Origin: Pseudobdellovibrionaceae bacterium
GTDB taxonomy: Bacteria > Bdellovibrionota > Bdellovibrionia > Bdellovibrionales > Bdellovibrionaceae
Direction of reading: 5' to 3'
NCBI GenBank assembly: GCA_019637955.1
Contig: JAHBUS010000011.1
Location: forward strand, 1 to 64,000
DNA length: 64,000 bases
Of the stretch, positions 40,870 through 42,922 are shown in pieces. The translations under genes were made by a program, and so were the position numbers. The notes beneath the pieces were generated by a model. That model was not told the DNA's origin, made no database searches, and worked only from the letters and a program-made list of their open reading frames with translations. Each line of letters begins with the position of its first letter. Position 1 is the stretch's first letter.

Positions 40870-41772
40870 ATGCGTTTCGCTTCTTGGACCTTTCTTTTTT
40901 TGCTGGCCGCCCTCCCGGTTCTGGCCGAACCCATGGAGCTGCCTCGACTCGCCAAGGTCGAGACGAAGGCCTCCGCCAATGCCGAGATGCTCTTTGTTTC
41001 GCGCCAAATCTACGAAATTCTCCGGAGCATGCCCCGCGAAAACGACCAGACCCCGATGTATGACATTCGCTACGGGATGATGGAGATCCTCCAGCAGCCG
41101 GCAGGACCGCGCGACACGCGCGAGTTCCGCGCCCAATTCGGTCAAACCGCCACCAACCGCGCGATGGGACAAATCGGCAACTCGGCCCTTCCCACCGGCA
41201 AACTGATGTGGGGAGTGTTGAGCGGACAGGCCACCGAGCGCGACTTTCAAGATGTGGCCAAGGCGCTTGAAGAAGATCCCACCAAGGGCAGTCAGTACGC
41301 GATCGAAGTTCTTCCGCAGCTTCGCAAGTTTTTAGCGAAGAAACACGAAGAGGGGAGATTCGGCGCCAACGGCGGTCTCATGGAATGGATGACGAACACC
41401 AAGGTCACCTATAAGTTGAACGCCACGCCGATGATGACCGACGGTTCGATGGGCTTTGCGGTCTCGCCGAAACACACCGTGGGTCTGCAATACGAAGTCG
41501 GCCAGCGCCGCGATTCGCGCGCGCAGCAACGCTGGGGCCTGCAGTACGATCTGTGCCGCGACGACATGGGCCGCGTCTGGGGCTCCACCACCACGCAAAC
41601 CTGCGAACACCGCTACAGCACCGGCGTCAACTTCGGCCGCGATATCCCAGGCACCCGCAACCAATTCGGTCAATACTGGAACTGGGGCGTCTCGGTGACC
41701 AATCATCGCAACAGCCCCGGCCAACGCGACTCCCAAGAAGGCCGCATCCGCCTCACCATCCCGCTTCCCTAA
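40870..41772 (+). CDS. Secreted protein, possible outer-membrane strands
   Basis: 300 residues. A signal peptide (SWTFLFLLAALPVLA) is followed by helices (about 35-170) and a C-terminal half with alternating hydrophobic strands (HTVGLQYEVGQRRD, QRWGLQYDLCRD, YWNWGVSVTNH, GRIRLTIPLP). The final strand resembles an outer-membrane barrel end, but the number of strands looks small. Two Cys (DLCRD, QTCEH) may pair. No family is recognised. It is followed by the gene-free stretch with two large hairpin elements. Confidence 0.6.
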   Translation: MRFASWTFLFLLAALPVLAEPMELPRLAKVETKASANAEMLFVSRQIYEILRSMPRENDQTPMYDIRYGMMEILQQPAGPRDTREFRAQFGQTATNRAMGQIGNSALPTGKLMWGVLSGQATERDFQDVAKALEEDPTKGSQYAIEVLPQLRKFLAKKHEEGRFGANGGLMEWMTNTKVTYKLNATPMMTDGSMGFAVSPKHTVGLQYEVGQRRDSRAQQRWGLQYDLCRDDMGRVWGSTTTQTCEHRYSTGVNFGRDIPGTRNQFGQYWNWGVSVTNHRNSPGQRDSQEGRIRLTIPLP

Positions 41773-41800
41773 ACCTCGCTCCCGAGAGAAGACCTCGGTC

Positions 41801-41938
41801 CCTTTGGATTTAGGGGATGGGGATTTTCCCTCGCCGGGGACGCGGCCATCCTGGCCTCTGGCCGCCCTGGAATACCGCCATCCGGGCGGGGGCGGAGGTC
41901 CCCATCGAGGGAAAATCCCCATCCCCTAAATCCAAAGG
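41801..41938 (-). repeat. Long-stem hairpin element, copy 1
   Basis: Perfect 33-bp arms (41801-41833 and 41906-41938), then a 2-by-2 mismatch, then 6 more pairs (41836-41841 with 41898-41903). The loop 41842-41897 is a 56-base core that, read on the minus strand, matches the core of copy 2 at 53 of 57 aligned positions. The core begins CTCCGCCCCCGCCC and contains the small hairpins CCGCC-CGGAT-GGCGG and GGCCA-GGA-TGGCC. The arms have no similarity to those of copy 2. Confidence 0.9.
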
Positions 41939-41986
41939 CCTCAAGATCCTCTCTCGATTTAGTTCTTAGGAAAACGCTCGTTCGAC

Positions 41987-42003
41987 GGAAGGCTTTGCCT
42001 TCC
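41987..42003. repeat. Short perfect hairpin
   Basis: GGAAGGC-TTT-GCCTTCC, a 7-bp stem with a 3-base loop, between the two hairpin elements. No T-run follows. Confidence 0.55.
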
Positions 42004-42058
42004 TGTCTCGTTCAACAATTCGGAAGATCTGTTTTCAGCCTTGTGATTTCTTGCCAGC

Positions 42059-42080
42059 AAATTCGCTTCGCGAATTTTTT
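42059..42080 (+). terminator. Rho-independent terminator
   Basis: AAATTCGC (42059-42066) pairs with GCGAATTT (42070-42077) around TTC, and the T-run extends to 42080. It probably ends transcripts of the engB-kdsB-pyrG-kdsD run before the kdsC-gliding series. Confidence 0.75.
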
Positions 42081-42119
42081 GTTCCTCTTGATCCCATCCT
42101 TCTCGGAGTGTCGTGTTCT

Positions 42120-42252
42120 TTGGGATTTGGAATTCTAGAATTTAAGTTGGCGAGGGCCTCCGCCCCCGCCCGGATGGCGGTATTCCAGGGCGGATAGAGG
42201 CCATGGATGGCCGTGCCCTCGCCAACTTAAATTCTAGAATTCCAAATCCCAA
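42120..42252 (+). repeat. Long-stem hairpin element, copy 2
   Basis: Perfect 38-bp arms (42120-42157 and 42215-42252) enclose a 57-base core (42158-42214). The core is in the opposite orientation to that of copy 1 and identical to it at 53 of 57 positions; the first 36 core bases are the same. The internal hairpins are CCGCC-CGGAT-GGCGG and GGCCA-TGGA-TGGCC, so both stems are kept and only a loop differs. The arms are AT-rich (containing AATTCTAGAATT) and unrelated to the copy 1 arms. Confidence 0.9.
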
Positions 42253-42397
42253 GGTCCCGGAGCCCTCCGAGAAGCATGGGCAAGAAACATAATCGTTCAA
42301 ACGAGGTCGAGTGGTGAGAAACAAGACTGGGACCTGAGTCTGGGTTCAAGTGTTTACGTGTAGCCAGTCGGGGCGGGGTCGAAGAAAAATAGAGAAC

Positions 42398-42922
42398 ATG
42401 GCTCTTACTTTACCACCCGAGCTCCGTGCTCGCTTGCAAAAGATCCGATGTCTGCTTTTGGACGTCGACGGTGTCCTTACGGATTGCCGGGTTTTTCTCG
42501 ACTCGAATGGCGAGTGGAAACGAATGTTTAGCATTCGCGATGGCTACGGCATCGTGCAGCTCAAAGAATCTGGTTACAAGCTGGGCGTGATCACGGGCTC
42601 GAAAGCCAAAGACATTCAAGAGCGCGTTCGCGTCTTGGGAATGGATTATTTCAGCGAAGGTTCGACGAACAAGACGCCGGGGTTCGAGAGAATTCTGAAC
42701 GAGTCGGGACTTCGGCCGGAAGAGATCGCCTACATGGGCGACGATGATTTTGATATTCCGATCCTGCGTGAAGTGGGTTTTGCCGCGACCGTTCCCGATG
42801 CGATGGACAATGTTCTTGAGAATGTTCACTACGTTTCGGTCCGCCCTGGCGGCAACGGCGCGGTCCGTGAAGTTTGCGAATTGATTTTGAAATACGGTGC
42901 CTTTTCGAAAGGTCAAGCATGA
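42398..42922 (+). CDS. kdsC: Kdo-8-phosphate phosphatase KdsC
   Basis: 174 residues from ATG 42398. HAD-family motifs are LLLDVDGVLTD (nucleophile Asp), GVITGSKAKDIQ and YMGDDDFDIPILREVG, in the short, cap-less C0 form typical of KdsC. It releases Kdo from Kdo-8-phosphate. Together with kdsB and kdsD, three of four Kdo enzymes lie within 6 kb. The stop overlaps the start of the next outer-membrane gene (ATGA). Confidence 0.93.
   Translation: MALTLPPELRARLQKIRCLLLDVDGVLTDCRVFLDSNGEWKRMFSIRDGYGIVQLKESGYKLGVITGSKAKDIQERVRVLGMDYFSEGSTNKTPGFERILNESGLRPEEIAYMGDDDFDIPILREVGFAATVPDAMDNVLENVHYVSVRPGGNGAVREVCELILKYGAFSKGQA

Follow-up and report, generated by a model that had tools for sequence, protein, structure and literature searches.

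Two long hairpins in the window, by which we mean the whole 64,000-nucleotide stretch of DNA that was analysed, belong to a widespread and apparently undescribed family of repeats in the Bdellovibrionales. A covariance model of the cap that they share (51 nt) finds about 130 places in genomes of this order, Bdellovibrio included. Our favored reading, to which we assign a probability of about one half, is that of a dispersed repeat that folds on one strand and whose arms, beneath a conserved cap, co-evolve by templated re-matching together with selection for the fold.

The hairpins, copy 1 (41801-41938) and copy 2 (42120-42252), have opposite orientations and sit between a gene for a 300-aa protein and a KdsC-like gene. 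The stop codon of the upstream gene lies 28 nt before the first arm of copy 1, a position typical for the family. The features of the region are as follows.

40870-41772, plus strand: upstream gene, 300 aa, stop codon 28 nt before the copy 1 arm
41801-41842: copy 1, left arm of the main stem, with outer imperfect pairing to 41783
41843-41897, minus strand (putative folding strand; core-forward is plus): copy 1, cap (core), covariance model 71 bits, covariation
41844-41847/41853-41856: copy 1, cap hairpin P3
41862-41866/41891-41895 (outer) and 41875-41879/41885-41889 (inner): copy 1, cap hairpin P2
41898-41938: copy 1, right arm of the main stem, with outer imperfect pairing to 41956
41957-42092: spacer between the elements, divergent in the folding sense
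42120-42157: copy 2, left arm, 38 bp perfect, with outer imperfect pairing from 42093
42158-42213, plus strand (folding strand; core reads on minus): copy 2, cap (core), covariance model 64 bits
42215-42252: copy 2, right arm, with outer imperfect pairing to 42280
42397-42922, plus strand: downstream gene, KdsC-like HAD phosphatase, read from the motif LLLDVDGVLTD, outside the element

A first-pass annotation of this region had described two hairpins with a common core and long paired stems, and our analysis bears this out. The arms of copy 1 (42 and 41 nt) form 39 matches with 2 mismatches, so that 39 of 41 positions pair. Copy 2 has a perfect 38-bp stem whose pairing runs on to 58 matched pairs. 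Outer imperfect stems extend the two elements to 41783-41956 and 42093-42280, respectively. The cores agree at about 53 of 56 positions and contain an identical stretch of 32 bases, which occurs twice in the window where no occurrence is expected. When hairpins with at least 22 of 25 positions paired and a loop of 35-75 were counted, these two were the only ones in the window, while ten shuffles of the window gave none and no shuffle equalled them. As the arms are unrelated between the copies, we rejected a plain duplication. The spacer also holds a terminator-like hairpin followed by a T-run (42058-42081). The source genome (3.77 Mb, 14 contigs) carries just these two copies; a third, weak match to the model (G000:C4:471) has no arms.

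Although the source genome has only two copies, dozens were found in its relatives. When 66 genomes of the same family were searched at the DNA level, relatives turned up in ten others, and the covariance model, built from 16 copies, gave 105 hits in 27 of the 66 genomes and in 8 of 20 genera. Long complementary arms, mostly unrelated in sequence, flanked 86 of the 97 hits tested (95 hits with fetched surroundings and the two window copies), and most of the others were cut by contig ends. With a refined model we found further arm-verified copies, several in each of two Bdellovibrio genomes that we take to be B. bacteriovorus HD100 and Tiberius. We also confirmed paired arms for three copies that lie in a second family of this order. 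Outside the order, a strict search of 369 genomes of the phylum, in which few candidates were scored per genome, yielded none. Several contigs of genome G029 (C13, C53, C96, C61 and C92) end inside or right beside an element, so that the long hairpins probably break short-read assemblies and make copy numbers underestimates. In L257 and other contigs of genome G025 we noted a repeated cap-like sequence (~23 bits) with many near-identical copies and no paired arms, which is probably a different repeat.

That the element is undescribed, as had been suggested, gained support from several searches. No Rfam model matched the window at its gathering threshold, and across 19 copy-bearing loci Rfam recognized just a tRNA and a small SRP RNA, neither of which overlaps an element. 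A literature search on Bdellovibrio hairpin repeats, which covered few subscription journals, returned nothing relevant. Among public genome contigs the exact cap pattern of the window had no match, and the exact Bdellovibrio-type pattern matched three contigs from two Bdellovibrio metagenome bins. We also considered a phage origin and rejected it, as neither the exact cap pattern nor the IS1-type transposase described below had a match or relative among viral contigs.

The conserved part of the element is the tip. The annotation had placed a junction with two small hairpins on top of the long stem, and covariation identifies this cap as a three-way junction. In the folding sense it reads linker CT, P2, a short linker (e.g. 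CGA, TGA or CAA), P3, then G and one further base before the stem. P2, the larger of the two, turned out to be a nested hairpin: its outer helix has 5-6 bp and its inner helix 4-5 bp, with a one-sided bulge of 7-8 nt on the 3' side and a loop that is mostly AGGAT, TGGAT or ACGAT. P3 has 3-5 bp and in most copies an NGGAN loop. Both loops comprise 5 nt of the type N-G/C-G-A-N. In HD100-type copies the bulge is enlarged into an extra hairpin, and in several Bdellovibrio copies the stem opens ~7 bp beneath the cap into a symmetric internal loop, GGA/GGA. Among 94 distinct cap sequences 98.7% of the cells were paired, with 250 two-sided changes against a single wobble in 1155 core cells, and shuffled and slid controls scored far lower.

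Beneath the cap the stem varies from 30 to 90 bp across the family and its sequence is free. Its imperfections are informative about the strand that folds. Read on the reverse strand, i.e. the complement of the core-forward strand, isolated arm mismatches were mostly A/G (107), G/T (104) and G/G (29), while A/C (27), C/T (21), A/A (16), C/C (9) and T/T (9) were less frequent; the types reverse to the dominant ones are several-fold rarer. After grouping the copies into 54 clusters by arm similarity, 31 favored G/T, 3 favored A/C and 20 tied, i.e. 31 of the 34 informative clusters pointed the same way. Compositional bias was rejected as the source because the flanks lack such an asymmetry. If both strands or neither were selected, the mismatches should be symmetric; their asymmetry therefore argues that one strand is selected to fold, a conclusion that we regard as well supported. 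The order of the mismatches is similar to the order of stability known for mismatched nucleic-acid duplexes. Whether this strand would act as DNA or RNA is a finer question. Since the tolerance of G/T barely exceeds that of A/G and wobbles are almost absent from the cap, we lean slightly towards single-stranded DNA.

These same observations bear on the possibility that the elements are genes for non-coding RNAs, in which the folding strand would be transcribed, the cap would bind a protein (for example a CsrA-like protein through its GGA loops) and the long stem would serve stability or processing. A constraint on the fold of one strand, with G/T tolerated on that strand, is what a functional RNA would show. 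The two short hairpins, whose loops are GGA in the folding sense in most copies, recall RNAs bound by CsrA/RsmA; csrA is present in 65 of the 66 genomes, and the internal loops are purine-rich. However, the scarcity of wobbles and the near-equal tolerance of A/G count against RNA, and some copies have CGA in both loops and thus, unlike CsrA/RsmA-binding RNAs, are not GGA throughout. Moreover, scans of the family found no conserved promoter signal and no enrichment of promoters or T-runs on the folding strand, the elements stand in no fixed relation to a transcribing neighbor, and the HD100 elements coincide with none of the attack-phase small RNAs published for that strain (PMC3627812). We consider RNA genes an unlikely explanation, albeit one that deserves serious attention.

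The position of the elements relative to genes is biased. Upstream of a core-forward element, 33 of 51 5'-side genes that read toward it end within 92 nt of the core, and 21 of the genes within 75 nt on this side point toward the element compared to 4 that point away; these counts are approximate, the ORF calls being mechanical. Genes on the 3' side mostly lie a few hundred nt away, and at some copies the nearest gene faces away. Where two elements are close together they are always tail to tail, in the order (+,-). This applied to all twelve close pairs (the window, five species at rplL-rpoB, a flagellin locus and five others), which represent roughly at least seven independent loci. Neither the position bias nor the orientation of the pairs, nor the constraint on one strand, had been part of the first-pass annotation.

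Many copies occupy orthologous places, which indicates vertical inheritance. An element lies between rplL and rpoB in ten Bdellovibrio species, and other loci shared between species are beside ssb, beside rpoD and at dnaX with the SRP RNA gene. In a survey of rplL-rpoB, in which the gene end was not located for nine genomes, the hairpin was absent from the upstream stretch examined in some species, including HD100. The distance from the end of rplL to rpoB is ~0.7-1.4 kb in many Bdellovibrio species and its content is species-specific (L198-L206, L210-L215). At dnaX, the element is followed directly, in the folding sense, by the gene for the small SRP RNA (L063 3309-3406, L065 3308-3406).

Such positions invite the idea that the hairpin acts in cis at the 3' end of the gene upstream, where it would end, process or insulate transcripts as an RNase III site or a barrier to converging transcription. 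Many copies indeed follow a stop codon directly and in fixed orientation, several are found at operon junctions (rplL-rpoB, rpsG-fusA, dnaJ-dnaK), and at rplL-rpoB the 5' arm comes directly after a terminator-like hairpin with a T-run. Yet the strand that would be present in the mRNA of the gene is the one on which mismatches are poorly tolerated, many copies are located elsewhere, and a barrier would have no need of a conserved cap. We therefore judge a cis-acting role of this kind improbable.

Mobility was evident in one genus, where some copies ride inside IS1-type elements. In genome G038 the ends of several copies read GAAACTG...CAGTTTC, with direct repeats of 9 bp, perfect or nearly so, on either side. 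The same ends and a 9-bp duplication bound a 0.97-kb IS1-family element (L156 1458-2430, G038:C8) with a single-ORF transposase of 306 aa, which matches the NCBIfam IS1 family below its cut-off and has no match in Pfam. This IS1-family element was inserted directly after a stop codon, and its 9-bp target duplication, AATTTCTAA, contains that codon. One might accordingly picture the whole family as common miniature transposons that have long terminal repeats and are mobilized by a transposase of the IS1 family, and the termini and target duplications that several G038 copies share with the nearby IS1-family element fit this. However, these termini are limited to a subset of copies in one genome and one Bdellovibrio copy with similar ends, and clear target duplications to that one genus; a transposase that reads ends leaves the conserved cap and the unrelated ends of the other elements unexplained. 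As it already fails for most copies, this explanation is very unlikely.

We also considered a RAYT/Y1 transposase as mobilizer. Such genes are widespread, yet their counts fail to track those of the elements: there is no Y1 gene in genome G029 with its 22 elements, nor in G011, G014 and G017, all of which have hits, and G018 combines 11 Y1 genes with 5 elements. This candidate was rejected, and no enzyme or binding protein for the elements was found. In genome G019 a gene for a RAYT-like Y1 transposase (L080 5450-6088) has flagellin genes around it and a hairpin pair nearby, but gene numbers in other genomes lend no support to a link.

How, then, do the arms remain matched? It had been proposed that pairing is kept while the stem sequence changes, and this holds across copies: for most pairs, the similarity of the arms does not exceed that of shuffled arms. 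Groups with common arms exist and are orthologous or recently multiplied; copies with related arms occur within G038 and within G029. In orthologues the inner and outer segments of the stem are recognizable while the middle is altered in both arms together. Nineteen comparisons of related copies revealed double Watson-Crick changes in 78 cases and single changes in 160, the latter concentrated in the poorly paired outer stem and in internal loops. The double changes tend to come in runs, with p values in single comparisons ranging from 0.007 to 0.5; the clustering is significant in few of these and modest overall. One related pair differs by a complementary 3-nt insertion in both arms. At locus L054 the arms of two related species (G005 and G008) are wholly different and still perfectly paired, although the adjacent flanks are almost identical; this arm swap rests on ~12 bp per arm, the core of G008 being a run of N.

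The paired runs, the paired insertions and the G005/G008 arm difference beside near-identical flanks make templated rewriting of the arms likely, in which copying from arm to arm would keep the stem matched. We are more tentative about a stronger version, in which both arms would be rewritten together in blocks by copying within the fold, preserving the shape and creating a new stem without selection on single base pairs, and think it may well not hold. Of the earlier proposal that arms are remade, rewriting from one arm to the other is thus likely, whereas their making from local DNA at insertion is unsupported as a general origin. The idea that arms arise anew at every insertion, from flanking DNA duplicated in inverted order, would suit the unrelated arms of most copies and the swap at one locus with unchanged flanks, but is very unlikely, since vertical inheritance accounts for many copies at orthologous places, orthologous arms diverge by paired changes with the innermost and outermost stem recognizable over many species, and both G038 and G029 contain copies whose arms are related.

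We thus return to the dispersed repeat that folds on one strand. Folding would take place on the strand complementary to the one that carries the core as CGGCCATCC...GGAG, and the three-way-junction cap formed by P2 and P3 on top of the stem of free sequence may be the recognition site of a protein. Stem pairing would be kept by selection for the fold together with re-matching between arms, through template switching or conversion within the hairpin, and such re-matching would yield paired changes in runs as well as paired insertions. The elements are inherited vertically beside the 3' ends of genes, with occasional multiplication in some lineages and, in one genus, transport inside IS1-type mobile elements. 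Of this picture, the data show the family itself, the covarying cap, the paired arms, the strand asymmetry, the rule for the orientation of pairs, the vertical inheritance, the coupled arm changes and the carriage by IS1-type elements, whereas the protein, the single-stranded state, the way of copying and any gain for the host are inferred.

Other dispersed hairpins offer instructive comparisons. REP/BIME repeats and REPINs with their RAYT (TnpA_REP) proteins are dispersed intergenic hairpins, often located 3' of genes and often arranged as inverted doublets, in which the fold of one strand is important. The elements described here resemble them in being dispersed, frequently 3' of genes, paired and folded on one strand. 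Unlike REP sequences, which are short palindromes of conserved sequence with a GTAG/GGAG head, they have a stem of 30-90 bp without conserved sequence and are conserved at the three-way-junction tip, and their numbers do not track those of Y1/RAYT genes. Integron attC sites are similar in that structure and not sequence is what is recognized, on one strand only and just 3' of coding sequences; their stems, however, have short conserved boxes at the base and a tip that varies. In the present elements it is the tip that is conserved while the base varies, and the neighbors are housekeeping genes. With IS1-family elements and their miniature derivatives a subset of the G038 copies shares termini and 9-bp target duplications, but most copies lack these ends and the conserved cap is left unexplained.

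The family has apparently escaped notice in predatory bacteria that are well studied, probably since sequence searches fail on stems that are different in each copy. The elements provide a natural data set for the long-standing question of how the arms of long inverted repeats stay matched, as sister species with coupled changes, paired insertions and one apparent replacement of whole arms allow selection for the fold and copying between arms to be separated by direct sequencing. The strand-specific constraint and the biased location beside housekeeping genes point to a real role of these elements.
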